64,000 nt of DNA from positions 1,550,211 to 1,614,210 of the forward strand of contig NZ_CP118181.1 of the NCBI RefSeq assembly GCF_028748145.1, in the 5' to 3' direction. Source of the DNA: Entomospira culicis (lineage in GTDB: Bacteria; Spirochaetota; Spirochaetia; WRBN01). Numbering within the stretch: position 1 is the first letter of the stretch; each line of letters opens with the position of its first letter. The position numbers and the translations under genes were made by a program. Positions 3,720 through 46,734 of this stretch are shown in pieces. The notes beneath the pieces were generated by a model. The model was given only the letters and a program-made list of their open reading frames with translations. It ran no database searches and was not told where the DNA came from.

Positions 3720-4342
3720 TCTTGCCCGTCTTCACCGCGTTTAGTTAGCGACAACGGCAACAACCAACTTGCAAACGCAATTGCCACCACCAATAAGACG
3801 CTTAAGGCAGTAAAAAGATATTGATTCATAAAGATAAAGACATCGCTTGCCCCAGCCACCAACGTGGCTACTACTAAGCCAATCAACGCAACCCATGCGC
3901 CTTTAGCGTAAAACCGCGCAACTAATAGCGTAAACAGTAGATAAAAAAGCGGGCGAAAGAGATACTCATATGCACCGTCAGCACTGCTTCTAAAGAACCA
4001 GAAAATCAAGCCATCTACCGCAAAAAACGTGGCCAAAAAGGCAATCAAGTAGATCTCGTCGCGCAAAACCCAACGACAGTGCAACGCCCAAGGGATCATC
4101 ACCAGTAAATAACCAAAAGGTATCAGGTAATCTAACACAAAAACCACCACCCATTGCGAGGCGAAGGTCATATAATCGCCAGCAAACCCCTGATCTAAAA
4201 GAAAGGCACGAATCAGAACCATCGGCAAGACCAATAGCAAGCCTATCGCCCCGTGCCACAAGACCATCCGTGGCGCGCGCCCCATAAATAATTGAGTAAT
4301 TAGCAGTGCGGGCATTAGCCCTAATACAAAGAGATTCATCAT
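3716..4342 (-). CDS. Multi-spanning membrane protein of unknown function, first gene of the lol operon
   Basis: A 208-residue protein made almost entirely of hydrophobic segments (about six or seven predicted spans), ending in a short charged tail ([10 protein letters not shown]). I do not recognise a family. It overlaps lolD by 4 bases, so it is likely made together with the LolCDE-type exporter and could be a partner or a membrane-maturation protein; that is inference. Two ATGs at 4342 and 4339 are possible starts. The -10 hexamer CATACT ends only 5 bases before the first, so the transcript would be leaderless. Confidence 0.8.
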   Translation of the reverse strand: MMNLFVLGLMPALLITQLFMGRAPRMVLWHGAIGLLLVLPMVLIRAFLLDQGFAGDYMTFASQWVVVFVLDYLIPFGYLLVMIPWALHCRWVLRDEIYLIAFLATFFAVDGLIFWFFRSSADGAYEYLFRPLFYLLFTLLVARFYAKGAWVALIGLVVATLVAGASDVFIFMNQYLFTALSVLLVVAIAFASWLLPLSLTKRGEDGQE

Positions 4343-4347
4343 TGTTA

Positions 4348-4376
4348 AGTATGCATGGATTATCGCATTTTGACAA
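4348..4376 (-). promoter_or_regulatory. Promoter of the lol-plsC-trhA operon (leaderless type)
   Basis: On the minus strand TTGTCA (4376-4371), a 17-base spacer and CATACT (4353-4348) lie 5 bases before the ATG at 4342. No ribosome-binding site fits between them. The -35 box overlaps the arm of the hairpin that follows mupG. Confidence 0.6.
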
Positions 4377-4404
4377 GAGGGGCAACCCTAAGATCGCCCC
4401 TCTT
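4375..4404 (-). terminator. Hairpin terminator after mupG
   Basis: Nine-base arms AAGAGGGGC and GCCCCTCTT enclose a 12-base loop. It lies just past the mupG stop. The T-run is better on the plus strand (TTTTCTC) than on the minus strand (TGTCAAAA), so termination in the minus direction may be partial. Confidence 0.55.
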
Positions 4405-4413
4405 TTCTCTATT

Positions 4414-5496
4414 TTATGGAATTAATTTGAATTTATGCCACGCTTCGATGCGATCTAAAAAAGGGATATAGTCAGGGTGCACGCGCGCCACCACCGAACT
4501 CTTACCACTATTCTCCATCGCATGACGCGCAATCTGCATCTCGCCAGCATAATGCCCATATTCTGAACTCTCAATGATAATATCACCGCGCTCAATCGTT
4601 GGCTTAGCGTTCATCACTGCAAAGTGATGCCCCTTGTGCTTAACGCGCGACTGGGTGGAACGTACCAAAAAGCTACTGACATCGCCACGATTGAAGTGCA
4701 ACTCATCAAAGAGAATGCTCTTCTCTACCGCAGGCAAATCGATAAGCGTCTCGATCTTAAGCTCTAGCACATCTTTATTGATCGCCGCTAACGTCGCCAA
4801 CTCCGCCTCACTGGCAAAGCAGTTGGAGATAATCACCACATCGATGCCACTAAAGAAGAGATCTCGCGCCTGCACATCGATAGGCAACGCGCGATGCTCC
4901 TCAAGCGTACACAACCCTTGATCGACCGGCCAAGGGCCAAACGTCGCCACATGCGAGTTGACAAAGGCTGCCGTAGTTAAACCAAATTGCTTAAAACGCA
5001 CGTTACAGCTATCAAAATGCGCGCGCGTTAAGCCACTGTAACGGTGCGGATAAAAGTTATGACACCCCAACATCATGTGTGTGTTGGGCTTGTAATCCAT
5101 AATCGTCTCGATATAGTGCGTGTCGTTGCTCATGTTGATCTCCACCTGCAGACCATGCGGGTTGTAGGTCATCATCGACTCCTCCATGCCCGTAAAGCCC
5201 ATATCCAAGCGAAAACCTTTCACCCCCAGATCGGCAAAGAAGCTCAAATCTTGATATGAAATCCCCAGCGCACTAAAGATACGCGGAGCCACATCGACAA
5301 TCACATCGTACTTGAGCGCCATCGCGTGTGCTACCGTCTCCTTAAATTCAGCAACAATCTTCTCCTTATCGCCCTCAATCGAGAGCAAACACATAAAGAC
5401 GCGCGTAAACCCATGCTTGGCCGCTAAGTCCAAATACGCCTTATTCTCGGCGATGGGCGCATGCCCTGCATAAACCGAAATGCCTAATTGACGCAT
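4414..5496 (-). CDS. mupG: MupG-like TIM-barrel phosphoglycosidase (DUF871)
   Basis: A 360-residue DUF871 protein. The family's best studied member, MupG, cleaves MurNAc-6-phosphate-GlcNAc in the cytoplasm; other members are often annotated as outer surface protein. Family features seen are the N-terminal LGISVYAGH, an internal LGCHNFYPHRYSGLT stretch near residue 145, and FGPWPVDQGLCTLEEHR near 190-206. The C-terminal part is the usual cyclophilin-like domain. It is the last gene of the celB-celA-mupG run, 9 bases after the EIIA stop, so its substrate is probably a disaccharide phosphorylated by this PTS. Whether that is a muropeptide sugar or a beta-glucoside is open. Confidence 0.85.
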   Translation of the reverse strand: MRQLGISVYAGHAPIAENKAYLDLAAKHGFTRVFMCLLSIEGDKEKIVAEFKETVAHAMALKYDVIVDVAPRIFSALGISYQDLSFFADLGVKGFRLDMGFTGMEESMMTYNPHGLQVEINMSNDTHYIETIMDYKPNTHMMLGCHNFYPHRYSGLTRAHFDSCNVRFKQFGLTTAAFVNSHVATFGPWPVDQGLCTLEEHRALPIDVQARDLFFSGIDVVIISNCFASEAELATLAAINKDVLELKIETLIDLPAVEKSILFDELHFNRGDVSSFLVRSTQSRVKHKGHHFAVMNAKPTIERGDIIIESSEYGHYAGEMQIARHAMENSGKSSVVARVHPDYIPFLDRIEAWHKFKLIP

Positions 5497-5505
5497 CCTC
5501 TCCCC

Positions 5506-5859
5506 CTACTTGCCTTCAAGTGCGCGTAAACGTGCATCTAAATCTGCCACTTTTGCGTGCAAATTGATAATCTTCTCGGTGAGCGCCTTCTCCGAAATCG
5601 CCGTCATCAAGTGATCTTGTGCGTGCAAAAAGAGCATGCTAATCTCAACGGGATTACCACCGCTCTCCTGCTGAATAAAGCCTGTCTGAATCTTATGCGC
5701 AGCGTGGAGCTCAGTATCTGCCTCGGCATAACGCGCCTTAGCCTCACCAATCTTTCCTGCCTCAGCCAAGCTCATCGCCTCAAAGACCTTACCTCGTGCC
5801 TCACCAGCACTGGCGATAATCGTAAAAATCGCCTCTTCCAGATTTAACTCTTCACTCAT
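5506..5859 (-). CDS. celA: PTS lactose/cellobiose-type EIIA component
   Basis: A 117-residue all-helical PTS EIIA. It carries the conserved C-terminal FLHAQDHLMTAIS segment (residues 78-90), which aligns with the VHAQDHLMT motif of the lactose/cellobiose family, and a central ELHAAHKIQTGFIQ segment with candidate phospho-accepting histidines (His52 and His55; the standard active His lies in or near the HAQDH region). It would pass phosphate from HPr to EIIB. GGAG lies 9 bases before the ATG. EIIC is encoded 11 bases upstream. The symbol celA is used in the sense of cellobiose EIIA. Confidence 0.88.
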   Translation of the reverse strand: MSEELNLEEAIFTIIASAGEARGKVFEAMSLAEAGKIGEAKARYAEADTELHAAHKIQTGFIQQESGGNPVEISMLFLHAQDHLMTAISEKALTEKIINLHAKVADLDARLRALEGK

Positions 5860-5870
5860 CTTTTACACTC

Positions 5871-7145
5871 CTACTCTTTAGCAGCATCCAGCTCTTCTTG
5901 GTACATCTTCTTATCGTACATCTTCATAAACGGCAGGTAAACAACACCCAAAATCACGATGTTCACCAATGCTAAAATCGCTGCGCGGATATCAAGCCCC
6001 GTTGCAAAGAAAGCCCCTAAAGGTGCGGGGAATGTCCACGGTGCTACAAGCACAGGAATATTTACCATACCAGAAGCGATAGCGATGTAACTTACAATCG
6101 TAACAATCACAGGACCTAAAATAAAGGGCACAAAGAAGAACGGATTGAGCATGATTGGTAGACCAAAAATAACTGGCTCATTAATGTTGAACAACGCAGG
6201 AATCAATGTAACCTTACCTAAATCCTTTAAGTAGCGAGAACGAGCAAAGAGAAGCAAAAAGACCAAACTCAACGTGCCACCAGAGCCACCTATCCAGACA
6301 AACCACTGAAAAAATGGCTCTGGAGTTAAATAAGGAATCGCCGCACCAGCTTCGTAAGCACTACTATTTTCAGAGATCATCTCTGTCCAAATAGGACGCG
6401 CCACCGCACCCACAATAGAGACACCATGAATTCCCATCGTCCACAAAAGCGTTACCAAAAAGACAATAATCACCGCACCATAAGGAGTATCTACGATATT
6501 TTTTAATGGATCAAAAATCTTAATAAACATCGCCTGTAAGTCAACTTTTGCGATAGTAATTAAGGTAAACATCACAATCATGATCGCAAAGGCCGGAAAT
6601 AACGCAGAGAAAGATTTAGAGACAGAGTCAGGCACACCTTCGGGCATCTTGATAACTAAGTTCTTCTTCACAAAGAGACGAAAGATCTCTACGGATAAAA
6701 TAGAGGTAAAAATTCCCGTAAATAAGCTCGCACCACCTAATCTTCCTAGAGGAATCACGAACCCTAAGCCATCAGCTATTTGAGGCATGGTGGTCATAAA
6801 GTAGGCCATCAGCGAAAGCGTACCGCCACTCCTACCATCTAGCTCATAGCTCTTGGCAAGGCTATATCCCATATTATATGTAGCATAAATGGCAATTAAG
6901 CCTGTAGTAACACGAAACGGTAACGCAATACCCAGCGAATTTGCCGCCAAAAATTGAAAAAATGCCTTACCCTCCTTAAAGGCGTCGGTAAAGGGCAAGT
7001 TCAAGAAAATTAAAAATAAACTGCCTACAATCGTCAATGGAATTGTTGAGACCATTCCATCGCGAATTGCCATTAAATGACGTTGCTTAGCAAGCTTGGT
7101 CATCGGGTTCAAAAAGTAGTGTTCCATCAAACTACCTGTACTCAT
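5871..7145 (-). CDS. celB: PTS lactose/cellobiose-type EIIC permease
   Basis: A 424-residue permease with about ten spans. Typical family segments are FLNPMTKLAKQRHLMAIRDG at residues 11-30, the conserved NINEPVIFGLPIMLNPFFFV near 312-331 and a MGIHGVSIVGAVARPIW segment near 237. It imports and phosphorylates a beta-linked disaccharide together with EIIA and an EIIB. No EIIB domain is fused here and none is encoded in the window. It is the first gene of the celB-celA-mupG operon and has its own consensus promoter. GGGAG lies 9 bases before the ATG. Confidence 0.93.
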   Translation of the reverse strand: MSTGSLMEHYFLNPMTKLAKQRHLMAIRDGMVSTIPLTIVGSLFLIFLNLPFTDAFKEGKAFFQFLAANSLGIALPFRVTTGLIAIYATYNMGYSLAKSYELDGRSGGTLSLMAYFMTTMPQIADGLGFVIPLGRLGGASLFTGIFTSILSVEIFRLFVKKNLVIKMPEGVPDSVSKSFSALFPAFAIMIVMFTLITIAKVDLQAMFIKIFDPLKNIVDTPYGAVIIVFLVTLLWTMGIHGVSIVGAVARPIWTEMISENSSAYEAGAAIPYLTPEPFFQWFVWIGGSGGTLSLVFLLLFARSRYLKDLGKVTLIPALFNINEPVIFGLPIMLNPFFFVPFILGPVIVTIVSYIAIASGMVNIPVLVAPWTFPAPLGAFFATGLDIRAAILALVNIVILGVVYLPFMKMYDKKMYQEELDAAKE

Positions 7146-7196
7146 TTTTCATCACTCCCTTCATACAAAAAAAAGTATTTTTACTATCTATCCTTC

Positions 7197-7225
7197 ATTT
7201 TACCATGCTTTTGGCAAGCTGTCAA
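7197..7225 (-). promoter_or_regulatory. Promoter of celB-celA-mupG
   Basis: TTGACA (7225-7220), 17-base spacer, TAAAAT (7202-7197) with an upstream TGG that makes an extended -10. The leader is about 45 bases and holds a GGGAG ribosome-binding site. The same GCATG(A/G)TAAAAT core is seen at the gene 8545 promoter. Confidence 0.7.
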
Positions 7226-7234
7226 TCACAACAA

Positions 7235-8545: not shown

Positions 8546-8591
8546 GGGGCTCACCTCTCACAAACATAGAGTCGTCTCTCTTTTTATTATA

Positions 8592-8620
8592 ATTTTATCA
8601 TGCGTTTTCCCCATTGTCAA
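8592..8620 (-). promoter_or_regulatory. Promoter of the GH4 gene
   Basis: A perfect -35 TTGACA (8620-8615), 17-base spacer and TAAAAT (8597-8592), about 45 bases before the start. Its position relative to the gene and its sequence resemble the celB promoter, suggesting shared control. No regulator gene is adjacent. Confidence 0.7.
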
Positions 8621-8632
8621 GAAAAACGTATA

Positions 8633-9772
8633 TTAACGAGGAAGTTCTGCCATCGCCTGCGGAAGTGCGACCGACAAAGCCTCTAGTTGTGAGATCGGTG
8701 TCCATGGGCTGTAGGAGAAGCGTACGATTTCCCCTGCCTCTTTCATGGCGATACCTTGGGCCATCAGGGCACGTAGACGCTCTTTGTTGCCTCCCGAGCA
8801 GGCGCTGTTGGTGCCCACCATGATACCATGCTCGCTTAAATGGCGCACCACCACCTCACCGGGGAGGGGAGCAAAGCGCACCAAGTAATGATACATCGAT
8901 TTTTCTCTTGCCGTCGCCTCTTGATGGTAGACCACGCCACCAGCATCTGCCACCGCTTGGTAGAAAAGCGCTTGCTTGGCTTGCGCCTGCGTATCTCTCT
9001 CTTGGGAGACGCGGTGTAGCGCAAGCTCCAGCGTCTTCACACCAAACAAATTCTCCGTGCCCGATCGCATACCAAATTCCTGTCCACCCCCCTGCAGAAA
9101 TGCCTGCTTACTGCCACGCCAATAGAGCAACCCCACGCCCTTAGCTCCCCCAAGTTTATGCGCCGAAAGTGCCAAGGAGTCGCACCGCCAATGCGACACC
9201 TCCCCGTAGAGATGCCCCACTACCAACTGCGCCGCATCCACGTGCAAGTGGATCGATCGGCTCTGATGCTCGGCTTGATAGGCATCTAACACCTTACGGA
9301 TCGCGCTAATATCATTGATCGCCCCACTTTGATAATTGATCGCCATACAACAGAGCATGCGTACTTCTTTAGTCAGCAATTTTTGCAAGTCGAGGAGATC
9401 TAAACGACCCAATTTATCTACCTTGACAAATTTAATACTAAAGCCTGTTTGCTTCAACCAACGGTGATTCTCATACATCGAGGGGTGTTCTGCCTCGCTC
9501 ATGAGGATGGTACCCCTTGCCGGCGATCGCAAAAGCGAGAGCAACACAAGCTGATTCGCCTCGGTAGCGCCACTGGTAAAGATAAGATCGTCTGCCGGTA
9601 ACCCTAAGTACCGGCCAATTGCCTCTCGACTTATCGACAAAGCGCCTCTTGCTCGCTTACCCGCCTCGTGTAAACTAGAGGGGTTCGCAAAATACTCCAA
9701 CGCCACGCGATACGCCTCTTCTACAAAAATCTGCTCCAACATCGCCGTAGCGGCGCTATCAAAATATAACAT
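8633..9772 (-). CDS. nifS: Cysteine desulfurase (NifS/IscS family)
   Basis: A PLP enzyme that takes sulfur from cysteine for Fe-S clusters and tRNA thiolation. The start is MLYFDSAATAM; EAEHPS carries the catalytic His, the Schiff-base Lys is in ALSAHKLGGAKGVG (Lys206) and the active Cys in GTNSACSGG (Cys325). The length (379) is normal. An in-frame ATG at 9790 would add six residues, but a -10 hexamer covers 9786-9781, just past that ATG, so the start at 9772 is preferred. No IscU-like gene is adjacent; murI is divergent. Confidence 0.93.
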   Translation of the reverse strand: MLYFDSAATAMLEQIFVEEAYRVALEYFANPSSLHEAGKRARGALSISREAIGRYLGLPADDLIFTSGATEANQLVLLSLLRSPARGTILMSEAEHPSMYENHRWLKQTGFSIKFVKVDKLGRLDLLDLQKLLTKEVRMLCCMAINYQSGAINDISAIRKVLDAYQAEHQSRSIHLHVDAAQLVVGHLYGEVSHWRCDSLALSAHKLGGAKGVGLLYWRGSKQAFLQGGGQEFGMRSGTENLFGVKTLELALHRVSQERDTQAQAKQALFYQAVADAGGVVYHQEATAREKSMYHYLVRFAPLPGEVVVRHLSEHGIMVGTNSACSGGNKERLRALMAQGIAMKEAGEIVRFSYSPWTPISQLEALSVALPQAMAELPR

Positions 9773-9780
9773 ACCTTTCG

Positions 9781-9810
9781 ATTTTAGCATATTTATCCTA
9801 TCTTTGCCAA
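9781..9810 (-). promoter_or_regulatory. nifS promoter (leaderless type)
   Basis: TTGGCA (9810-9805), 18-base spacer, extended -10 TGCTAAAAT (hexamer 9786-9781), then 8 bases to ATG 9772. Confidence 0.5.
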
Positions 9811-9890
9811 GAATGCATTGACTAATCGGGTCTCTTTACGCTAAAATATCAGAAAAGAGGGGAGGAGCGTGAGCATCTTTTTTAAGTGTT

Positions 9891-9896
9891 TATAAT
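9891..9896 (+). promoter_or_regulatory. Putative -10 box of murI
   Basis: A perfect TATAAT ends 6 bases before the murI ATG. I see no good -35 hexamer at 16-18 bases, so this is weaker than the other cases. Confidence 0.4.
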
Positions 9897-9902
9897 AATT
9901 AT

Positions 9903-10697
9903 ATGACAAAAAATCACAATATATTAATTATCGACTCAGGCATCGGTGGATTACCCTATTTTACTTCCATTAAGCATCTCCTAGAAGCGCACGCGCTAGC
10001 CTGCACCATCGACTATCTTGCCGATAACGACGCTTTTCCCTACGGTGCCAAGAACGATAGTCAACTGCAAGCCCACTTACATACACTGGCTAACAAGCTC
10101 AAAGAGGCGCATAAGCATTACGATGTTATCGTTATCGCCTGTAATACCGCCAGCATCTATGGCAAAGAGATCTTCACCAAGCACCTGCCCAATACCCCCA
10201 TCCTCACGACCACGCCGACCCTCTGCATGCAGAATACCTCCAGTGAATCCTTTCTTCTGCTTGCCACCAGTGCGACTTGCCGTGCCTACCAGCACCTAGG
10301 CAACATCACCATCATTCCTGCCGATCCGCTAGTACGGTGGGTAGAAACGCTCTTTCCCCAAGCCTCACAAGCCGAGCGTATGAAGTACCTTGAAACGTTT
10401 GTCATCGAGCAAATTCCCATTCAACATCCAGCAACACTCATTTTGGGATGCACACACTTTTTACATATTAAAAATGATCTAGAAAAACTTCTGACCTCCC
10501 ACCACCTACAGATCGCCGAGACCACCCAAGCTCTTGCGCAAGAGCTCCTACAGACCCTTCTCCATCAAGGCGCAACCAAGGGCAAGGTACAGCTAGGAGA
10601 ACTCTATTTAACCCGGTATCTACCCGAAGATAAGGCATATTATCAAAAAATCGCAGGAGAATATCACTTTGAATTTAACAAACATCGGCTCTTTTAA
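9903..10697 (+). CDS. murI: Glutamate racemase
   Basis: MurI makes D-glutamate for peptidoglycan. The 264-residue protein has the three family motifs: IIDSGIGGLPYF (residues 9-20, with the catalytic Asp/Ser), IACNTAS with Cys80, and LGCTHF with Cys183, the two catalytic cysteines. No Shine-Dalgarno sequence precedes the ATG; TATAAT lies 6 bases upstream. Its 3' end overlaps the ung start by 29 bases, so the two genes are coupled. Confidence 0.94.
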   Translation: MTKNHNILIIDSGIGGLPYFTSIKHLLEAHALACTIDYLADNDAFPYGAKNDSQLQAHLHTLANKLKEAHKHYDVIVIACNTASIYGKEIFTKHLPNTPILTTTPTLCMQNTSSESFLLLATSATCRAYQHLGNITIIPADPLVRWVETLFPQASQAERMKYLETFVIEQIPIQHPATLILGCTHFLHIKNDLEKLLTSHHLQIAETTQALAQELLQTLLHQGATKGKVQLGELYLTRYLPEDKAYYQKIAGEYHFEFNKHRLF

Positions 10698-11448
10698 TCA
10701 CAAACACCATCCGCTCAATTACCCCGTTCACCCTGAATGGCGCACGCTCTTTGTCGAGCTATCCGAGAAGCAATGGTTTCAGCTCCTTCTTAAAGAGATT
10801 GAGCATGCTTATGCAACCCTAAGCATTGCACCCCAAGAGAAGTACTTGTGGCGCGCCTTTGAGCTTACCCCACGTGCGCAACTCAAAGGGATTATTTTGG
10901 GGCAAGATCCTTATCCGAACATCGAATACGCTAATGGTCTAGCCTTTAGTGTCGATCCCGGATTAACGATTCCTGCATCACTACGCAATATCTTTTTTGA
11001 ACTCAACCGCTCGCATGAGATTCCCGTCTCCACCCATGGCGATCTCTCCAACTGGGCAAAACAAGGACTTCTCCTACTCAATACCGTCCTAACGCTTGAT
11101 CTTTCCACAAAAAAGAATCCGAAAAACATCTCAGAAGAACTCTGGACGCGCCTGAATCAAAGCATTATTCATTATATCCTCGAGGAGAAAACCCCCGAAC
11201 TCATTTTTATGCTTGCCATGGGCAAAAAGGCGCAAAAGGCGGCAAAAACCTTCTTGCTAGCCGACAACCTGCATATTATTAGTACGCCCCACCCATCGCC
11301 ACTGGCAGCCATTGGGCGTAGCGCAACGCCCTTTATTGGCTGTGGTTGTTTTTGTGAGATTGACGCTTTTCTACAAAAACATCAACAAGCCAGCATTACT
11401 TGGTCTCTTGACGCACTCGACGCACAAAAGGATAACCGTCCTCACTAA
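10669..11448 (+). CDS. ung: Uracil-DNA glycosylase, family 1
   Basis: Ung removes uracil from DNA in base excision repair. The water-activating Asp80 is in LGQDPYPN, the LLLLNTVLTLD segment is present, and the catalytic His motif is HPSPLA near residue 206. The protein is 259 residues, slightly long at the N-terminus. The ATG at 10669 lies inside the murI frame; a shorter non-ATG start close to the murI stop cannot be excluded. The 3' end overlaps the convergent NYN gene by 53 bases. Confidence 0.93.
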   Translation: MNLTNIGSFNHKHHPLNYPVHPEWRTLFVELSEKQWFQLLLKEIEHAYATLSIAPQEKYLWRAFELTPRAQLKGIILGQDPYPNIEYANGLAFSVDPGLTIPASLRNIFFELNRSHEIPVSTHGDLSNWAKQGLLLLNTVLTLDLSTKKNPKNISEELWTRLNQSIIHYILEEKTPELIFMLAMGKKAQKAAKTFLLADNLHIISTPHPSPLAAIGRSATPFIGCGCFCEIDAFLQKHQQASITWSLDALDAQKDNRPH

Positions 11449-12451
11449 TCTTCGTCTCCACGATGCCACGTACTTCGGCGTTCTGAATAAACTTCTTCAA
11501 TTTAGAGAAGCCTAGCTCCTGTAAATTAACGCCTCGGTTTGACAAGAGAATGCCCAAGTGATTATAGCCATGCCAGCCGTCGTGCTCACTATTTTCCTTG
11601 AGTTCATCTAGCTTGATAAGCTCTTCATCTAGTGCAATTAGCGCTGCCTGTAACGATCCTGGGGCGCTATTTCCACGCGTATTACCATTGTTACGGGAGA
11701 CCACCTCGCGTGAGCCGCTCTCGGAGCGTTGAATGGTGATAAATCCAGCAGATCCTGCGGCCATGACAAAATGGCTAAAGCGTTTAAAGCCCAAATCGCT
11801 CTCGTTAAATTCGCGATTGAGCATCTTCATCTGGATCTTTACTGCACTAAAAGGCGTACTCTTGCCCTGATTCTTCAACATATCAGCAGCCTCGGCCAAC
11901 TGTTGAAACCAATACTCTCTGCTCTCTTTTACCTTGGATACGGCAACTTCCTCGTCCTCATCATCATCGTCTTTGCTAGCCAAGAGTTCGCGATAGTCGG
12001 TAAAGCCGTCGGCAAGGGCAAGGAGATCTTGAGGGGCGCGCTTCATATCGTAAATGACATGGATCATCTTACCATTTTTACGCATGGTTTGCAGGAGCGG
12101 ACGAAAGTCGCTATCGCCGGTTACCACAATAAAGACATTGATATGTCCATAAAATTGAAGCAACTCCATCGCGTCGCTCACTAGCGCCATATCGGCCGAA
12201 TTCTTTCCCTTACCCCCATTGCCCCCCTTGTGAGGCGTGTGCGTAAGCTTAAATTGACGTTCGCTAAGGCTACGGCTTAGCTTAGCAAACTTGGGAATCG
12301 ACCAATCAGCATAGGCAAAGCTCACTGCTACCCGACCAAATCCTTCGGCAAATTCGCCGATCCCTTCCATCAATAAGGTATCGTTATTGGGTGGGGTGAT
12401 ATTCTCAATATCCCACAAAATAGCTACACCATGAGGCATCTCTTTATTCAT
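11396..12451 (-). CDS. NYN-domain (LabA/DUF88-type) protein with LOTUS/OST-HTH domains
   Basis: A 351-residue putative RNA-binding ribonuclease. Residues about 7-155 form a NYN (PIN-like) domain: VAILWDIENI gives the first acidic site, NSADMALVSDAMEL the second, and VVTGDSDFRPLL the third. Residues about 185-250 and 285-345 look like two OST-HTH/LOTUS modules (STPFSAVKIQMKMLNREF; FSKLKKFIQNAEVRGIV) separated by a polar linker. An acidic stretch (SKDDDDEDEE) follows the NYN domain. It lies 45 bases downstream of infA on the same strand, which suggests a role in RNA or translation. Its 3' end overlaps ung. The ribosome-binding site is weak. Confidence 0.85.
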   Translation of the reverse strand: MNKEMPHGVAILWDIENITPPNNDTLLMEGIGEFAEGFGRVAVSFAYADWSIPKFAKLSRSLSERQFKLTHTPHKGGNGGKGKNSADMALVSDAMELLQFYGHINVFIVVTGDSDFRPLLQTMRKNGKMIHVIYDMKRAPQDLLALADGFTDYRELLASKDDDDEDEEVAVSKVKESREYWFQQLAEAADMLKNQGKSTPFSAVKIQMKMLNREFNESDLGFKRFSHFVMAAGSAGFITIQRSESGSREVVSRNNGNTRGNSAPGSLQAALIALDEELIKLDELKENSEHDGWHGYNHLGILLSNRGVNLQELGFSKLKKFIQNAEVRGIVETKISEDGYPFVRRVRQETK

Positions 12452-12496: not shown

Positions 12497-12718
12497 CTAA
12501 CGTTCGCGGAAAATGATGCGACCTTGTGTCAAGTCGTAAGGAGATAGCGCCACCTTCACCCGATCACCGGGAACAATACGAATATAGTGCTTGCGCATAC
12601 GCCCCGAGAGATAGGTCATCACAACGTGCCCATTATCGAGCTTAACTTTAAAATTGGTATTCGGCAGTGCATCGGTTACGACACCCTCTACCTCAATTGC
12701 TTCTTCTTTTTGCGACAA
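12497..12718 (-). CDS. infA: Translation initiation factor IF-1
   Basis: A 73-residue S1-fold protein that matches IF-1 along its length: [18 protein letters not shown], then [19 protein letters not shown] and [13 protein letters not shown]. It binds the 30S A site during initiation. The start codon is TTG (12718-12716) with GAGGTGG four bases upstream; no ATG gives a normal N-terminus. A TTG start on infA is unusual. The NYN-LOTUS gene follows. Confidence 0.95.
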
Positions 12719-14562: not shown

Positions 14563-14571
14563 TGCTACAAT
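14563..14571 (+). promoter_or_regulatory. Extended -10 of recB (leaderless type)
   Basis: TGCTACAAT, an extended -10 element, ends 6 bases before ATG 14578. The -35 position at 17 bases reads TTCCGT, which is weak. No Shine-Dalgarno sequence precedes the ATG. Confidence 0.5.
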
Positions 14572-14577
14572 AGTCGC

Positions 14578-17500
14578 ATGAGTAAGAATTCTTATGTCGA
14601 CTTAGACCTCACCCAGCCCGCCGCCCTCAACGCATCTGCCGGCACGGGCAAGACCTACAGCCTTATCCGCCTTGCGCTCCTCTACCTGCTAAAGAAGGAT
14701 AATCCCCCCACTATCCAGCAGATTCTCCTAGTTACCTTCACCAACAAGGCCACCGCCGAGCTTCGCCATCGCCTGCGTGAGTTGCTCAAAGGTCTGCTCC
14801 ACCCCAGCGACGAGACCGAACTAAAACAGTTTTGTGAGGAGCATCGCGCCTTTTTGGAGCGTGAGGACTACCATATCGAGAACGACCGACCCGAAATCAG
14901 AGAGTGCCTCGAGCGTGCCTATGCCAATCTCGACGAAGCGCCGATCTACACCATCCACAGTTTTTGTCAATATTTATTGCGCGCCTATCCCTTTGAGAGT
15001 AGACAGAATTTTCACTTTGCGCTGGTCAACAACCAAGCCATTCTCGAGCAACTGCTCTACGACTTCTTTCGCCAGCAAGAGCAAGCCATCAATCCACGCA
15101 TCCACCTTGCCTATCGTTGTTACACCCGTTCTTACAAATTTTTCAAGAACGACCTCGAGAAGCTACTCCTTGAAAAGTCAGAGCGATACGAAGATAGTCC
15201 CCTCATCCAAGCGCTCAAGGAGGAGCTTCGCACCAATCTCATCCACCCCGATCCAGACGAGCGCAATCGGGTATGGGAGATCTATCAAGCCTATCAACAA
15301 GGTAACCATGAACTCAACGCCATAGTGGAGGCGCTCCGTGCCACGGCTATCCCACCCACAGAAGAAGATAATAAAGTGCTATGGCAGGAGCTTAAACGCA
15401 TCGATCCGCGCGATCTCTACGCCCTAATGGACATCCTCGCGCAAATCCCACCCAAAAGTAAGGGAGATTTTACTACGTTAATCGATCAACTCGCAAAGCT
15501 TAATCTCTATCACCTAGAAAATGGTAAAAAATCAAAAATTCCCTTCTTTAACGCGATGAAGGCGACGTTGCTTGCCGAGATTGTCGATTTTATCCAGAAA
15601 AAGCACCCGCAGCAACGCCAAGAGCAGGCGCAGTTGCGTTTTAATGATTTGATCGACGATGTTTATCAACTGCTTGCCCATGAGCAGGCCAATGAATCAT
15701 TTGTTAGCGCGATTCGTCGCAATTTTCGCGTGGCGCTCATTGACGAATTTCAAGATACCGACCACAAGCAGTGGGCAATCTTTAAGCGCCTCTTTAGCCC
15801 CAGCCCCAACCCCAACGATCCGACAGACCACACCTATCTGCTCATTGGCGACCCCAAGCAGTCGATCTACCGTTTTCGCGGGGCGAACCTTCAAACCTAT
15901 CTCACCGCGATGCAGAGCGTTCCACAAGATAATATCTGTACGCTTGCCAACAACTATCGCTCTAATGCACAGGTTATCAAGGCGATTAACCAACTCTTTG
16001 CGCCCCTCTTTTGCGAGCAAGATTACGCATCCGTCAACGCAGAAAACAAAGAAGCGCTCATGCTTATGAAAAACGACAAACCCTGCACCGCAGGCATCAC
16101 CTTGCTTACACCTACCCTAGCTGCGGAGGCAAAGCCTATCGGCAGTAAAGAGAGCATTAGAGCGACGGCGCAAGAACTCCTCGTGCAACAGATTCATACC
16201 CTGCTCGATCCTGCCAATGGCTACGAGCTCTACAACCCCAAGACACAAAAATCACGAAAATTAGAGCCCAGCGACATCGCCTGTCTCACCGAGACCCACA
16301 AGGAGGGGAGCGATCTTAAAGAGGCGCTCTATCGTCTCAATATTCATGCCGTCAACATCTCCAACCAGAGCCTCTTTGCCAGCCAAGAGTTTCTCTTTTT
16401 GCAACTCTTCCTCCAAGCGCTCATCGCTTTACACGCCAAGGGTACCGCGGTAAATGAGTTCTTCTACCATCACTTCCTCCACACCTTCCGCCAAAAGCAT
16501 CCGCAAGATGGCTACGCGCGTCTGGTAGGCAAGCTCGAAACGGCAAAGGCGTTGCTCCAAAAGCACTCGATCTTGCGCGCCTTCGATCAGATCTTAACAA
16601 AATGTGATATCATGCGCTCCCAGCTCGCCCAGCCCTACGACGGCGAACGTTTCTTTATTAATATTCGCCACCTCGAGGATCTCCTCATCGACATTGGCAG
16701 AAGTACCGCGCTCACCAACCCAACGGCGATTCTCCACGCCCTCCAAGCGATGATTGACAAAGCCGAAGCCCAAGACGAGAGCAATAATGAAAAGACCTTG
16801 CGTCTGGAGCACGACGAAAATGCCCTACAAATCCTCACCGCGCACAAAGCCAAAGGCCTTGAGTTCCCCATCGTCTTTAGCCTCGTAGGCATCACCAATC
16901 TAAACGAAATAAAAAGCAAGCCATCGCTCGCCTACATGGACGAACAGGGCAAGCAAGGCTATCGCTACGGCATCGACGCAACCTTTGTCCAGATGCACAC
17001 CCAACAAGAACTCGACGAAAAAAAACGCCTCTTTTACGTTGCCTGCACCCGCGCCCAGAGCCACCTCTACCTACCCTATCTCTTTGTAAAAGATCCCGTG
17101 CCCTTTGTGCAATTTTTGCAACAATTTTTAGATCTAAAGGAACCCGAACTAGAAGTAAATGCCAAAGGAATAAAAGTAACCGGCGCTGCTGTAAAACAGG
17201 CTACGCAACGTCATGAAGCAATAGAAGATGCCCTTAAGGGACTCCCCGCTGCCTTTGCCTATCTTGATATCGATACGGAGATAATGCTCGCGCCTCTGTC
17301 GCAAGAAAAAGCGACACGATCCAATCCGCAATTTATCCCTGCCTCGCTAGATATCCAGATAAAAGATCGCATGCGCGCAACCCATAGCTACACCTCGCTC
17401 ACCAAAAACCTCAAGCGTACCGCTAGTGCTAGCGAACCTGAAGATGATCAGAGCGATGCCGAAACATTGCTGTGGGAGGATAACGAGACCCCAGCCGTTG

Positions 17501-26521: not shown

Positions 26522-27301
26522 TTACGTTCTCTCCTCCTTATCTATAAGATGATACCTACGCATCACCCGTTGCTCTAACTGACTACTAATAAAAATAATC
26601 AGTAAACTCAACCCAATGCTCAAGGCGATGGTTGCCATCATCAGGGCGTAATCGTAGCTCTTTCGGCTTCGCAACAACGTATTGCCCAGACCATCTTGCC
26701 CGCCCAGCCATTGTGCCGTAATCACCACCGAGATAAGGTATGTTGCCGAGACGCGCACGCCACTAAAGAAGCCCACCATCGCCATGGGCCAGCGCGCCAT
26801 CCTAAAGATCTGCCAACGACTTGCCCCATAGCTACGCAACAACGCCTCAACTTCGCGATCGCTCTTGGCTAACGCCTGACTAAAGCCCACATAAATCGGG
26901 AAAAAGGTAACCAACACCACAATCACTAGCTTGCTCGTGGTGCCAAAACCAAGCAACAAGAGCACCAGCGTCGTGGTAGCGATAGGCGGACTGGCCTGCC
27001 ATGCATATAATAAGGGATAAAGAAGGCGCGCTAACCAAGGCAACGGCTCTAAAACAATCGCCAAGACAAAAGCAACAACTGCGCCTAAAAAGAGACCAAT
27101 CACCGCTTGATAAAGCGTCTCCACCGTGCCTAGCCACAAGAGCTCACGATGCCTTACCATAGAAGCAACAATAGTAGATGGTTTGGGAAAAATGCGCACC
27201 CAAAGGGTAAAATAGTCGTCGGCAAAGAGTTGCCAAAGAACTAACCACGCAAGATAAAATAGAGCAATCGCAATAGATAAACGAATTTCTTTTATACGCA
27301 T
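26522..27301 (-). CDS. thiX: Thiamine-precursor ABC transporter permease
   Basis: A 259-residue permease with about six spans. The EAA-type loop reads SYGASRWQIFRMARWPMAM near residue 160. It is the first gene of thiXYZ and lies directly behind the TPP riboswitch. GAAGGAAG, the last part of the riboswitch 3' side, also supplies the ribosome-binding site. Confidence 0.9.
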   Translation of the reverse strand: MRIKEIRLSIAIALFYLAWLVLWQLFADDYFTLWVRIFPKPSTIVASMVRHRELLWLGTVETLYQAVIGLFLGAVVAFVLAIVLEPLPWLARLLYPLLYAWQASPPIATTTLVLLLLGFGTTSKLVIVVLVTFFPIYVGFSQALAKSDREVEALLRSYGASRWQIFRMARWPMAMVGFFSGVRVSATYLISVVITAQWLGGQDGLGNTLLRSRKSYDYALMMATIALSIGLSLLIIFISSQLEQRVMRRYHLIDKEERT

Positions 27302-27305
27302 ATGG

Positions 27306-27394
27306 ATGCTTCCTTCGCTGGCATTATCCAGAATCAGGTTCGATGGGTCGATGCATAGGCATCCTCTCAGCTTAACAAGCTCCCCAGCTCCTTT
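27306..27394 (-). ncRNA. TPP riboswitch (THI element)
   Basis: On the minus strand the conserved parts occur in order: GGGGAGCTT, GCTGAGAGGAT, a variable P3 arm, GACCC, GAACCTGATTCTGGATAATG and CCAGCGAAGG. This matches the thiamine pyrophosphate aptamer closely. Because the 3' end contains the purine-rich ribosome-binding site 5-10 bases before the thiX ATG, control is most likely at translation: bound TPP would hide the site. Confidence 0.95.
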
Positions 27395-27436
27395 GATACG
27401 TTTATTCTATCTTAACTGCTCTTTTTTGTCAAGTAA

Positions 27437-31530: not shown

Positions 31531-31658
31531 GCTATCACCATCCTTGCCTTATATTATAAATCATTTTTTTACTATAGCATACATGGTTCACCCAAATTGT
31601 GCAAGTAGACAAAAGCGATCGTTTCGTCTATACTCTAGCCTATGAGAATCTGGATTAC
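31475..31658. repeat. 184-base direct repeat, copy B
   Basis: Partner of 30341-30524. This is the intact arrangement: start of copy B, intergenic region, start of rfbD. Confidence 0.85.
31606..31634 (+). promoter_or_regulatory. rfbD promoter (leaderless type)
   Basis: TAGACA (31606-31611), 17-base spacer, TATACT (31629-31634), then 7 bases to ATG 31642. There is no room for a ribosome-binding site. Confidence 0.65.
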
Positions 31659-32514
31659 GGGGGGAGATGGACAACTGGCACGCGCGCTTCAACAACAACT
31701 GCGTCGGCAAGGTGCGCCCTTTGTTGCCACCAACCGTAGCCAGTGCGACCTCACCGATTATCGAGCGGTTGAGAGCTTTGCCCAACAATATCGCCCCACG
31801 CTCATTATGCACACCGCCGCCTTTACTCATGTCGACCACGCCCAGCAACACCAGCTCCAAGCCCTTGCCGACAACCTTCTCGCCACGCGTAATCTTACAC
31901 ACATCGCGCAACCCTACCGCGCTAAAATTGTCTTCTTCTCTACCGACTATCTCTTTGACGGCACCAAAACCTCGCCCTACCTCGAGAGCGACTGCCCCAA
32001 TCCTCTACAATGGTACGGTAAGAGCAAGCTCCTCGCCGAAGAGACCTTGCACCCCTACCCAAATCATCTGATTATTCGTCTATCGTGGCTCTACAGCACC
32101 GAGCGTGGATTTGTCCTGGCCATTCTCCAACAACTGCGCACCCAAGCCAGCCTCACCGTGGTAGAGAATGAAATCGGCACGCCCACCTTTATCCCGTCTA
32201 TTGTACCAGCAATTCTTGCCCTTGCCACTAGCCCAGCCGTGGGTACGTATCATCTTGCCAGCGAAGGAGAGGTAAGCCGATATCACCTCGCCCAGGCCAC
32301 CCTTAACCTCGCGCAACGTAGCCTCAACCTATCCACCAACCCCACCCTCCACGCCATCACCAGCCATGCCTATCGACAAGCCCATCCACAGACCGCCACA
32401 CGCCCCATCTACAGCCCATTAGCCAGCCAAAAAGCCAAACAAACCCTCGCCATCGCCTCGCTAGGCACGTGGCAGGAACACTTGCAAGCATTTTTTCGAC
32501 ACTATCTTTTATAA
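31642..32514 (+). CDS. rfbD: dTDP-4-dehydrorhamnose reductase
   Basis: A 290-residue SDR enzyme for the last step of dTDP-L-rhamnose synthesis. The NAD(P)H motif is ITGGDGQLA (residues 5-13); HTAAFTHVDHAQ, VFFSTDYLFDG and the catalytic YGKSK near 123 follow. Its stop codon directly abuts the stop of the convergent rfbC. RfbA and RfbB are not in the window. Confidence 0.92.
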   Translation: MRIWITGGDGQLARALQQQLRRQGAPFVATNRSQCDLTDYRAVESFAQQYRPTLIMHTAAFTHVDHAQQHQLQALADNLLATRNLTHIAQPYRAKIVFFSTDYLFDGTKTSPYLESDCPNPLQWYGKSKLLAEETLHPYPNHLIIRLSWLYSTERGFVLAILQQLRTQASLTVVENEIGTPTFIPSIVPAILALATSPAVGTYHLASEGEVSRYHLAQATLNLAQRSLNLSTNPTLHAITSHAYRQAHPQTATRPIYSPLASQKAKQTLAIASLGTWQEHLQAFFRHYLL

Positions 32515-33042: not shown

Positions 33043-33684
33043 CTAAGTGTGTTGTGCCAAAAATTGATGCAATTCTGCCACCGTAGCCACCCAGTAATCG
33101 CCCTCGGCAAGCTCGGCCATATCGCGCGCATAGCCATAGCCCACCCCGATAAACGGGACACCCACCTCTTGCGCTCCGGTTAAATCAAAGTGGCGATCGC
33201 CCACCATGATCGGCGCTTTTGCTCCCGTTGCTTCAATAACCGTACGCATCAGCTGTGCCTTGGTTTCGGGAGCATCGGGATAGTAGCCAGCCACCGCGTC
33301 AAAAAGATGCCCGATGCTAGCAACTTCCAAGATCTTGTCCAACGAAGGGCGAAACTTCAACGAGGCGATGGCTTGCTTCTTGCCTGCCTGCTTAAACTCC
33401 TCCAGCATCGGCATAATCCCATCAAAAAAGATGAGGTGCTCCAACGCCGACTCCTGATAACGTGGGCGAAAATAGACAATCATCTGGGTAACCACATCGG
33501 GCGCTGCCCCCACAATATTTGCCAACGACCACTCCATGGGTGGCCCCACAAACTCTTTAAGGTCGTAGCCATCGGGGTTAAAGCCAAACTCCGCTAACAT
33601 CTGGCGCAAAATCTTGTGCAAACCAGGGCGGGTGTCGTATAGTGTGCCGTCAAAGTCATAAATAATTAAATCGAACTTACTCAT
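33043..33684 (-). CDS. HAD-superfamily phosphatase (phosphoglycolate phosphatase-like)
   Basis: A 213-residue HAD hydrolase: nucleophile motif IYDFDGTLYDT (residues 7-17), motif II Ser near KQAIASLK, and motif IV MVGDRHFDLTGA near 157. A four-helix cap lies between. The substrate is not known; Gph/PpaX-type enzymes act on phosphoglycolate or pyrophosphate. It has a leaderless-type promoter and precedes rfbC in one unit, though the link to rhamnose synthesis may be chance. Confidence 0.87.
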   Translation of the reverse strand: MSKFDLIIYDFDGTLYDTRPGLHKILRQMLAEFGFNPDGYDLKEFVGPPMEWSLANIVGAAPDVVTQMIVYFRPRYQESALEHLIFFDGIMPMLEEFKQAGKKQAIASLKFRPSLDKILEVASIGHLFDAVAGYYPDAPETKAQLMRTVIEATGAKAPIMVGDRHFDLTGAQEVGVPFIGVGYGYARDMAELAEGDYWVATVAELHQFLAQHT

Positions 33685-33690
33685 GCCTAT

Positions 33691-33719
33691 AGTCTACCCA
33701 TTTTCACCACTTTAGACAA
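33691..33719 (-). promoter_or_regulatory. Promoter of the HAD-rfbC unit (leaderless type)
   Basis: TTGTCT (33719-33714), 17-base spacer, TAGACT (33696-33691), then exactly 6 bases to ATG 33684. Confidence 0.6.
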
Positions 33720-33767: not shown

Positions 33768-33796
33768 TTTACATTCAAACAAACCCATGGTAAAAT
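33768..33796 (+). promoter_or_regulatory. Promoter of the 33803 gene (leaderless type)
   Basis: TTTACA (33768-33773), 17-base spacer, extended -10 TGGTAAAAT (hexamer 33791-33796), then 6 bases to ATG. The GAAAGG in that gap touches the ATG and could not act as a normal ribosome-binding site. Confidence 0.65.
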
Positions 33797-33802
33797 GAAA
33801 GG

Positions 33803-34174
33803 ATGGAAAAGAAAAAAGAAGTAAAAAGATTGCTAACAGCGCGTCTTCATGACGATATCTATCGAAGTCTTAATGGAGTAAATCAAAAATTTAATCTCAT
33901 CACTAACCCAGATGCATATGCAGATCTAGTTGAAGAAAGATTACCCACGGTAAAAGTAGTAAATCAGAAAAATTTGGAAAAGAAAGTGGCAAAAGTCATT
34001 GATACGCTATTTCCAAATGATAAAGACGATGATGAAATTCCCTATCACAACAATTCTGTGCATCATATCGATGAAACTTGGGATATCACAAATGGTGTGT
34101 TTAAAAAGTATTTTAAAGAAGGTAACTTCGACAAGTGGTTAGAGAAAAGAGTTAAGGCAAGTGACTCCGATTAA
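33803..34174 (+). CDS. Orphan charged protein, unknown function
   Basis: A 123-residue soluble protein, rich in Lys, Asp and Asn (MEKKKEVKRLLTARLHDDIY at the start, FPNDKDDDEIPYHNN in the middle, EKRVKASDSD at the end). It has no signal peptide or spans, and no family I recognise. It is AT-rich beside GC-richer housekeeping genes and stands alone with its own promoter, which suggests acquisition. It could be a small regulator or half of a mobile or defence module, but nothing in the sequence shows this. Confidence 0.65.
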   Translation: MEKKKEVKRLLTARLHDDIYRSLNGVNQKFNLITNPDAYADLVEERLPTVKVVNQKNLEKKVAKVIDTLFPNDKDDDEIPYHNNSVHHIDETWDITNGVFKKYFKEGNFDKWLEKRVKASDSD

Positions 34175-34175
34175 A

Positions 34176-41658: not shown

Positions 41659-41769
41659 CTCCTTGGGTGCATGGCTGATCCTACTATACGCAATAATCTC
41701 CTAAAGGTCAACTAGACGGGAAGCGTACTCAACGGGATGCCTCTTCTTGCCAATAGCTCTACTTATCCA

Positions 41770-42819: not shown

Positions 42820-42838
42820 CTAGGTACTCCTTGCTATG

Positions 42839-44311: not shown

Positions 44312-44359
44312 CTAGGTATTCCTTACTATCTTATTCTTTGGTATCATTATCGGCACGAT

Positions 44360-45346
44360 TTACTCTTGCCAGCGATAATGCATCATAATCACATCAGAGC
44401 TAGGCAAGGTGAGCGTAACATCGTGCCAGCTAGCGGTGAACCACAATGGCGCCTTTGTATCCAGAGCAAAGGCTGGGTCGTCGATGGCTTTAAGCCTTGC
44501 TTGAATCGCTTGCCAATCATCTTTAAGCGAAAATTCCTCGCCCAGTAGAAGAAACGTTACCCCACGCCTTGGCGGAGCCAGCAAGCGCAACGATCCTAAG
44601 AGAAACTCCTCGCCGAGCTGTCGATCAAAATTAAGGCTAACCGGTGGGGCTGCGTAAGTATACGACGCCGACTTACCCGCATCATCAAAGATATGCATCG
44701 GCTCGCCTAGTAACGCCATCACCTCGGTCTGAGACATGCCAAAGCGAACCTCTTTCTCGTCGATACGCACACCATCAGGTAAAAGTTCTATCGCAATCGG
44801 TGGTAATAACGGCAACGTTTCATTACGATATTCAATCGACTCTATCTTATCCGCATGCTCTCGGCTACGTCTGATAGTCAAACTATCGCCCTCTTTACGC
44901 CAAATGCTCTGTTTCTCTGTATGCTCAATCGTTGCACCTGCTATAGAAATATCCGACAACCGCTCGATCGCTTGCGCGTAACTCTCCGATGTGGCAAAGG
45001 TTACCCCGCCCAGCTCCATGGTACGCATACGAGAAGAATAGAGCGAAATCGATGTTAAATAGCGCGGAGAATCTTGTAAGCGCACATCATCTCGAAAGCG
45101 TAACATAAACTGAAAGCCATACCAATGCATACCTATGGATATATCATCAGGTGTGCTATCGGTTGGCGCGCCCAAAAGAGCAAAGACCTCAGCTTCGCTC
45201 ATGCCAAAACGAAGCTCTTTGCCATCCACCATAAAGCCCCCCTCGGTAAGCACAATTGGCTCGCGCCCACGCGCCTTATGGTTGCTCTTCACACAAGAAG
45301 CGACAAAAATCAAGGCGAAAATCGCCAGCCAGATGCGTTGTTTCAT
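44360..45346 (-). CDS. Lipoprotein with two FGM-LGxP repeats
   Basis: A 328-residue paralog of the two downstream genes. Here the N-terminus is a lipoprotein signal (LAIFALIFVASC, Cys18) rather than an anchor. Its repeats are FMVDGKELRFGMSEAEVFAL and VRIDEKEVRFGMSQTEVMAL. The first repeat is almost the same as the first repeat of the 41770 protein, also at DNA level. GGGAG precedes the ATG. The three genes form one minus-strand unit. Confidence 0.78.
   Translation of the reverse strand: MKQRIWLAIFALIFVASCVKSNHKARGREPIVLTEGGFMVDGKELRFGMSEAEVFALLGAPTDSTPDDISIGMHWYGFQFMLRFRDDVRLQDSPRYLTSISLYSSRMRTMELGGVTFATSESYAQAIERLSDISIAGATIEHTEKQSIWRKEGDSLTIRRSREHADKIESIEYRNETLPLLPPIAIELLPDGVRIDEKEVRFGMSQTEVMALLGEPMHIFDDAGKSASYTYAAPPVSLNFDRQLGEEFLLGSLRLLAPPRRGVTFLLLGEEFSLKDDWQAIQARLKAIDDPAFALDTKAPLWFTASWHDVTLTLPSSDVIMMHYRWQE
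44921..45010. repeat. Near-identical DNA block shared with 42361-42450
   Basis: Partner of 42361-42450, in the first repeat of the 44360 lipoprotein gene. Confidence 0.75.
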
Positions 45347-45496
45347 TATAATGACTCCCTTAGTATTTATTACTTGCCTATTTTGTCATATTTTCTTGCG
45401 TTATGAAAGGCAAAAAAATTGAACAGTGTTAATCTAAGCCGTGCCTTTCATCAGATGGACAACCCCGATCTCCTTGCTTTGCTGGCTACAATCGCA

Positions 45497-45525
45497 TAAA
45501 AAAAGTCCATCAAAACGATGGACTT
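45497..45525 (-). terminator. Terminator of the MinD-like gene
   Basis: Arms AAGTCCATC and GATGGACTT with a 5-base loop, followed on the minus strand by TTTTTTT. Confidence 0.85.
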
Positions 45526-45553
45526 AGACAGGAGGTGGCGCATCTACAACGCA

Positions 45554-46699
45554 TTACAATTTAAATCCATCTTTGCTGGCTTTGACAATCTTACTCTTTA
45601 AGAAGCGATTCTCTTTACGTAGCTGATTGAGTTCATACTGCTGGGTGCGGATGGTCTCGATGATGTCGCCATCGCTGATCGAGCCCTCTTTAAAGAAGGT
45701 CTCCACGCTCCCCATCTTCTCCATATAATCTTCGCTTGCCTCGGCCTCGGCGAGCTTATAGCCTGCTTCGATGTCGTCGGCTTTAAGGAAGGGTGCAGCG
45801 TTACCCTCACGCGCTAGCATAATGCGATCGACCACCCGATTGACCGCTTGGGTCATCACGCCACGCGGTTTATAAATCACCACAGGTAAGCCACTTGCCA
45901 ATGCGCGTGATTGGGTTTCATCGCGAAACACTACGCCTAAGTGTTCAATATCGATGCCTAAATACTGCACAATCGTACGGCGTAGACGCTCGGCCTTGCT
46001 AGCGCTACTTGGCTCATCGAGCATATTCATAATCAAGCGCGGGCGAAAGGCTTTCAGCGTACGTTCAAATTTTGGATAATGTTCGGGATCGGCGATCTTG
46101 AGTTGTTCCAGTAGCTTGGTAATGTAGATCTTCTGCAGACTCAACCCATCACGTTTGAGGTGATCCATAAAGATCGCACCCTTACTATCCTTAGGAAAGG
46201 CCGAAGCGATAATACGAAAGATGGCATTCTTTAAAAAGAGATAGGCGGTGAGCGTAGCAGCCATGTTGGGGGCGGTAACAATCACGCCACGTCCAGAGAT
46301 GAGGAAGAAGTCTACCGTGTTAAACCCCGATCCTGCGCCTAGGTCTAAGATAAGATAGTCGCATCGGATGGTCATAAGAGCGTTGATCAATCTCTTCTTC
46401 TGCTGAAAGGTGAGGTTCGCTAAGCCCACCACGCCACCATCGCCTGCCAAAAAGAAGAGCTTATCATACTCGGTGCGCATCACCAAGTCGTTAATGTCCA
46501 TCTGCGGACTCACCAAAAAAGTGCCCACACCATGGCTAATGCCCTTAACCCCCAAAGTGATATGCAAGTTGCCTGCGCCCAAGTCTAAATCGACCAAGAC
46601 AACCTGCTTGCCCTTTTTTGCTAACGTAATCGCGATGTTCGTGGAGAGCGTACTCTTACCCACACCGCCTTTGCCACTTGCTACTGGTATGATTGTCAT
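45554..46699 (-). CDS. MinD/ParA-family ATPase (FlhG-like position)
   Basis: A 381-residue deviant Walker ATPase. ASGKGGVGKSTLSTN is at residues 7-21, switch I VLVDLDLGAGNLHITLG near 37-53, and YLILDLGAGSGFNTVDF near 126. The family's C-terminal part is extended by about 100 residues, ending in a coiled coil (QQYELNQLRKENRFLKSK). The DUF115 motility-associated gene lies divergently nearby, so a role in flagellar number/placement or surface positioning is plausible. I start it at ATG 46699, matching the normal MinD N-terminus; the -10 lies 6 bases upstream. Confidence 0.88.
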   Translation of the reverse strand: MTIIPVASGKGGVGKSTLSTNIAITLAKKGKQVVLVDLDLGAGNLHITLGVKGISHGVGTFLVSPQMDINDLVMRTEYDKLFFLAGDGGVVGLANLTFQQKKRLINALMTIRCDYLILDLGAGSGFNTVDFFLISGRGVIVTAPNMAATLTAYLFLKNAIFRIIASAFPKDSKGAIFMDHLKRDGLSLQKIYITKLLEQLKIADPEHYPKFERTLKAFRPRLIMNMLDEPSSASKAERLRRTIVQYLGIDIEHLGVVFRDETQSRALASGLPVVIYKPRGVMTQAVNRVVDRIMLAREGNAAPFLKADDIEAGYKLAEAEASEDYMEKMGSVETFFKEGSISDGDIIETIRTQQYELNQLRKENRFLKSKIVKASKDGFKL

Positions 46700-46705
46700 G
46701 TTCTT

Positions 46706-46734
46706 AGTATACCTCACTCTCATCAATTTCTCAA
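46706..46734 (-). promoter_or_regulatory. Promoter of the MinD-like gene (leaderless type)
   Basis: TTGAGA (46734-46729), 17-base spacer, TATACT (46711-46706), then 6 bases to ATG 46699. An upstream in-frame ATG (46726) would be inside the promoter. Confidence 0.7.

Follow-up and report, generated by a model that had tools for sequence, protein, structure and literature searches.

Start-Adjacent Promoters Point to a Minority Class of Leaderless mRNAs in an Uncultured Spirochaete Genome

Introduction

Are the first genes of some transcription units in this spirochaete genome expressed from mRNAs that begin at the start codon itself? The question arises from the 64,000-nucleotide stretch of contig NZ_CP118181.1 analysed here (the window, taken at its full length), where a sequence-only reading had noted, at several unrelated genes, a sigma-70-like promoter ending 5–8 bases before the start codon (the gap), and had suggested a regular class of leaderless mRNAs governed by unusual initiation rules. 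The hexamers, spacers and gaps listed for its seven main cases are present in the sequence as described. With a probability of roughly 0.85, leaderless mRNAs are made for about 5–8% of first genes, and thus form a minority class. In these genes, the −10 box of an ordinary housekeeping-type promoter would end 5–8 bases before the start codon; transcription by RNA polymerase would consequently start at that codon, or 1–2 bases from it, and produce an mRNA without a 5′ leader or Shine-Dalgarno (SD) site. If other bacteria in which such recognition is described are a guide (PMC9031893; PMC10783764), the 5′-terminal AUG could be recognised directly by the 70S ribosome, or by a 30S subunit already carrying initiator tRNA. 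SD sites are kept at the majority of internal genes and at roughly half of the first genes, and the anti-SD sequence is intact.

Start-Adjacent Promoters Across the Genome

The window and 40 further stretches of 20 kb together cover 864 kb of the 1.77 Mb genome, or about half of it. Scores were obtained for 387 first and 234 internal genes out of 674 genes called; a gene counted as first if it diverges from its upstream neighbour or lies 60 bases or more from it. Promoters were evaluated with a generic sigma-70 score, which uses E. coli-like frequency matrices without fitting to this genome and requires a recognisable −35 element in the scored cases; the strict cut-off was a score of at least 7 at gap 5–8, and the loose cut-off was lower. 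Since the cases in the window had been picked by eye, the main test was confined to the 40 stretches (800 kb) outside it. There, 22 of the 180 first genes without an SD site carry a promoter scoring at least 7 at gap 5–8, against a mean of 3.5 and a maximum of 9 in 100 shuffles. When the window is included, the 200 first genes without an SD site have 28 such sites, compared to 5.2 expected from gaps 13–60; they form a peak of 9, 12, and 6 sites at gaps 6, 7, and 8, respectively, against 1.29 per offset. At internal genes outside the window, adjacent promoters are not clearly in excess in this genome (6 sites vs. 3.8, P 0.18). Joint calling of starts and promoters yields 49 genes at cut-off 7, compared to 14–33 in eight decoy windows. 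Leaderless mRNAs would accordingly account for about 5% of first genes by the strict estimate ((22 − 3.5)/349) and about 8% by the loose estimate ((45 sites − 13)/387), or approximately 3–5% of all genes.

The adjacent promoters and SD sites are largely separate. Of the 28 first genes whose strong promoter lies at gap 5–8, 2 have an SD site, compared to 63 of 78 gene-window cases with a promoter in five windows between gaps 20 and 43, a tally in which a gene may count repeatedly.

Conservation at Orthologous Genes

The same layout recurs in G001, which belongs to a different genus of the same family and is the sole family member among the 40 relatives searched; less than half of this genome was examined. 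A strong promoter at gap 5–8 is carried by 58 of its 207 first genes without an SD site, against 6.0 in shuffles; counted by distance, there are 53 sites compared to 3.2, and the leaderless share is estimated at about 9% of the sampled genes. Joint start calling gives 75 genes against 11–28 in decoys at cut-off 7, and 99 against 42–58 at cut-off 5.

Conservation was examined gene by gene in 26 ortholog pairs with consistent starts. At a score of at least 5, an adjacent promoter is found in G001 for seven of the eight genes that have one here, compared to 4 of the 18 that do not (P 0.003); at scores of at least 6 and at least 7 the result is 6/7 vs. 5/19 (P 0.011), and across the full set of 73 first-gene pairs the table reads 8/6/10/49 (P 0.004). 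At seven decoy distances and three cut-offs, none of the corresponding comparisons is significant, the lowest P value being 0.077. In six of the pairs that share the layout, the proteins align from residues 1–4 in both genomes, and the upstream 45 bases are only 24–40% identical, which indicates that the layout is kept, not the sequence. Five of the six window genes with comparable starts (murI, recB, rfbD, dnaX, and a gene for a ParA-like ATPase) keep a −10 box 6–8 bases before the start in G001. The recurrent layout at first genes thus holds beyond the window in which it had been noticed, by enrichment as well as by conservation.

Start Codons and the Initiation Machinery

In leaderless (TA-led) genes of bacteria, the start codon is nearly always ATG. 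The same bias is seen here: all 29 leaderless-type genes (gap 5–9) start with ATG, compared to 312 of 358 other first genes (P 0.035), and in G001 the proportions are 57/58 and 280/320 (P 0.011). The start calls themselves need scrutiny, as they could be wrong, with true starts lying downstream behind SD sites on mRNAs with ordinary leaders. Gene and start calls relied solely on codon scores, with upstream signals unused, and the gene starting at 4342 scores slightly better at 4222 by this codon measure (14.7 vs. 13.5). If miscalling were the explanation, downstream starts preceded by SD sites should be commoner in leaderless-type genes, but in-frame starts with a 5-base SD match within 90 bases occur in 3 of 29 of these vs. 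24 of 358 other first genes, and in 0 of 58 vs. 3 of 320 in G001; neither is a clear surplus. The six layout-keeping pairs, aligned nearly from their first residues in both genomes, also argue against miscalled starts, which we judge highly unlikely as a general account.

Another proposal is a distinct initiation system with altered rules that has replaced SD-led initiation in this lineage, in line with the unusual rules originally suspected. In its favour, 200 of the 387 first genes lack a 4-base SD match. Against it, SD sites are strongly enriched, in 187 of 387 first genes (88 in shuffles) and in 160 of 234 internal genes (59 in shuffles), so that the expectation of SD sites being kept inside operons is mostly borne out; the 16S 3′ end reads GGATCACCTCCTTTCT, with the anti-SD sequence intact; and matches to IF3, IF1, RpoD, and S1 domains are present. 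None of these results points to altered initiation rules, IF2 not having been searched. With SD sites as the main signal, the suggestion of unusual rules is not supported, and a replacement system seems extremely unlikely.

The TTG-started infA and a NYN-LOTUS gene had been proposed as possibly relevant to such rules; both leads were rejected. In infA (12497–12718), GAGGTGG lies four bases ahead of the TTG, and approximately 60 bases upstream there is a promoter-like TTGACT-18-TAGACT, leaving room for a leader; infA therefore looks leadered and SD-led. The presumed NYN-LOTUS gene (11396–12451) starts with ATG, and its adjacent promoter is marginal.

Weighing the Evidence

Besides the dependence of the start calls on codon scores, a series of results weighs against leaderless mRNAs. 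The check proposed with the initial observation, a genome-wide tabulation of −10 hexamers by distance from the start codon, gave a divided outcome: the bare TANNNT count in the first 464 kb is nearly flat, with 29 hexamers at gap 5–8 in 218 first genes compared to 26.7 expected, and the peak at gaps 6–8 emerges once the −35 and −10 elements are scored jointly and genes with SD sites are separated. With the SD filter off, the excess outside the window is modest (25 sites in 349 first genes vs. 14.3 expected from other distances; P 0.007), since those distances further upstream are populated by the genuine promoters of leadered genes. The absence of SD sites is partly geometric, as the −10 hexamer takes up part of the SD position. 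Joint start calling at cut-off 5 returns 66 genes in this genome against 47–65 in decoys; here the null is blurred because decoys at gaps 14–53 catch real promoters of leadered genes. Position-by-position composition of the first genes without SD sites in this genome shows no clear −10 column, since the class is a minority.

The related genome and E. coli add further points on this side. A first version of the ortholog test, which demanded the absence of an SD flag, was weaker and slightly lowered our confidence: it gave P values of 0.08 (cut-off 5) and 0.037 (cut-off 7) for the 73 pairs, and of 0.19 and 0.055 at the same cut-offs for pairs without SD sites in both genomes. The nifS-like gene does not keep the layout in G001. 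Internal genes of G001 show an excess of adjacent promoters as well (17 vs. 4.2), so that a restriction to first genes fails there. In E. coli, 8 sites are found at the loose cut-off compared to 2.7 (P 0.006), five of them at gap 5; at the strict cut-off there is 1 site vs. 0.7. Finally, promoter-like sites also lie further upstream at two genes of the window, a stronger one at gap 55 for murI and strong ones at gap 37–39 for recB.

Some of these results would suit the view that the adjacent −10 boxes are chance matches in AT-rich DNA, or secondary promoters, and that main transcription comes from further upstream with long leaders; the sites upstream of murI and recB, the flat hexamer count, and the loose-cut-off decoys that come near the real window in joint start calling all lean this way. 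Yet chance or secondary −10 boxes sit poorly with the shuffle controls in both genomes, with the peak at gaps 6–8, with ortholog conservation that appears at the adjacent distance and at none of the seven decoy distances, and with the lack of an SD site in 26 of the 28 genes concerned. This alternative is considered distinctly improbable, and leaderless transcription of a minority of first genes is retained as the preferred reading.

Genes of the Window

In the window, the best promoter at gap 5–8 before each start codon was compared to 2000 dinucleotide shuffles of the gene's own 100 upstream bases, which give the P values for the cases listed by the earlier reading. For six of the seven main cases the score is reached by fewer than 0.5% of shuffles; recB is the exception. 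On the minus strand, the gene at 3716–4342 is preceded by TTGTCA-17-CATACT-5-ATG (4343..4376, P 0.0045), the nifS-like gene at 8633–9772 by TTGGCA-18-TAAAAT-8-ATG (9773..9810, P 0.0010), a HAD hydrolase gene (33043–33684) by TTGTCT-17-TAGACT-6-ATG (33685..33719, P 0.0025), and the gene for the ParA-like ATPase (45554–46699) by TTGAGA-17-TATACT-6-ATG (46700..46734, P 0.0005). The SD flag of this last gene is triggered by a GAGG that lies upstream of the −10 box, 12 bases ahead of the ATG; its G001 counterpart has TTGCCA-17-TAAGAT-6-ATG. On the plus strand, rfbD/rmlD (31642–32514) follows TAGACA-17-TATACT-7-ATG (31606..31641, P 0.0015), where the G001 sequence, read by eye, has TTGTCT-17-TATTAT-7-ATG. 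An open reading frame at 33803–34174 follows TTTACA-17-TAAAAT-6-ATG (33768..33802, P 0.0005); as a caveat, its coding score is weak, and a search for a family match obtained none. For the genes starting at 4342, 33684, and 33803, the G001 sample gave no match at E 1e-4.

The remaining main case, recB (ATG at 14578, plus strand), is a weak one: the extended −10 TGCTACAAT is present six bases before the ATG (14563..14577), but it has a weak −35 and is weak in shuffles (P 0.061). The G001 counterpart reads TGCTATACT-6-GTG. The leaderless layout is also found, as in recB, at a RecC-like gene (exonuclease V gamma, L063:6643-10023) and at uvrA (L064:2342-5218), in the latter case in both genomes and in the former in this one; the leaderless-layout class thus takes in several DNA-repair genes. 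Two genes had already been regarded as weaker, an assessment with which the shuffles agree: murI (9903–10697, plus strand), with GTGAGC-16-TATAAT-6-ATG (9869..9902), is intermediate (P 0.0065) and has TATACT-7 in G001, and dnaX (ATG at 62139, plus strand), with the −10-like GATAAT eight bases before its ATG (62125..62138), is weak (P 0.13) and has TATACT-8-ATG in G001, again read by eye.

A scan of the 53 scored genes of the window, 38 of them first genes, with 400 shuffles each, identified nine genes with P below 0.05; all nine are first genes, and chance would give about two among 38. It added a strong tenth case that had escaped the original list, the endonuclease/exonuclease/phosphatase-family gene at 60974–62002 on the minus strand (Pfam PF19580), with TTGCTA-17-TAAAAT-6-ATG (62003..62037, P 0.005), as well as marginal adjacent promoters at 12451 (P 0.018) and 12915 (P 0.047).

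Three side observations concern the surroundings of these and other genes. A terminator-like hairpin on the minus strand (4362–4420; −24.9 kcal/mol, z −5.3) directly precedes the promoter of the gene starting at 4342, and its 3′ arm reaches the −35 element; this arrangement is consistent with termination and initiation packed together, and with a new unit beginning there despite the upstream gene on the same strand. The divergent genes starting at 33684 and 33803 have their two leaderless-type promoters in a single common gap of 118 bases. A thiamine pyrophosphate (TPP) riboswitch (RF00059, 67.5 bits) occupies 27293–27396 on the minus strand, just upstream of the gene at 26522–27301 and slightly overlapping its predicted start.

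Occurrence in Other Spirochaetes and Significance

Six other genomes of the class, which we take to be Spirochaetia, were sampled at 200 kb each, and the counts are correspondingly small. One of them, G019, is identified as Borrelia, since a 6-kb part of its contig C2 matches a Borrelia turicatae plasmid at 100% identity; the assignment of the class follows from this match. Among first genes lacking an SD site, sites passing the strict cut-off number 6 in 29 genes for G007 and 6 in 32 for G024 (P 1.3e-4 and 1.4e-5; stretches L078-L087 and L122-L131), G027 has a weak peak (P 0.03), and in the 200-kb samples of G026, G021, and G019 the peak is not significant. When a simple pattern is substituted for the matrix, only G007 of the six stays significant.

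Leptospira represents another lineage of the phylum. In Leptospira interrogans, differential RNA sequencing (dRNA-seq) found approximately 440 mRNAs whose leader measures less than 10 bases, and of the genes for which a primary start site was assigned, about 70% still have an SD motif (PMC5243855); starts were mapped by experiment in that spirochaete, whereas they are predicted here. A −10-like TANNNT/TATAAT motif whose first T lies approximately 12 bases ahead of the start has been interpreted as the promoter in leaderless genes (Zheng et al., 2011; PMC3160421). The layout of these TA-led genes is the same as here, and the 3–5% of genes estimated in this genome is similar to the range given for spirochaetes, where leaderless genes were reported in 6 of 18 genomes (mean 3.9%, range 1.8–6.9% of genes); the estimate of about 9% for G001 lies above it. 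The 953 bacterial genomes of that survey had been sequenced by 2011, whereas the present genome is uncultured and has a single family member among 40 relatives. Leaderless genes in spirochaetes and other bacteria are therefore already known from these two reports.

In Deinococcus-Thermus, a −10 box a few bases before the open reading frame was shown by experiment to act as a leaderless promoter, and about 30% of open reading frames carry an adjacent TANNNT motif (PMC12340547); in the present genome the class is a minority, and the scored cases have a recognisable −35 element, as the score demands. Mycobacterium, of a distant phylum, likewise has a leaderless class beside SD-led genes (PMC3898074; PMC4633059), and the leaderless share in Actinobacteria is higher, around 20% (Zheng et al., 2011; PMC3160421). 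Another report names Bacteroidetes, Cyanobacteria, and Deinococcus-Thermus, but not Spirochaetes, for a prominent AT-rich bias between −20 and −10, with the reservation that such a bias alone is no proof of leaderless mRNA (PMC5397173).

More speculatively, leaderless mRNAs in this family might be a selected, ortholog-conserved class that includes DNA-repair genes (recB and uvrA in both genomes, the RecC-like gene in this one), in which the same genes hold their promoter at the start codon even as the DNA around it changes, and which could be translated preferentially under stress by 70S initiation; we regard this as an unlikely extension. The general picture of bacterial initiation is unchanged. 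The present analysis extends a known but unevenly distributed mode of expression to an uncultured spirochaete family, and its added value lies in the gene-by-gene conservation of the layout that is suggested between two genera; start-codon annotation in such genomes should take an adjacent −10 box as a signal.

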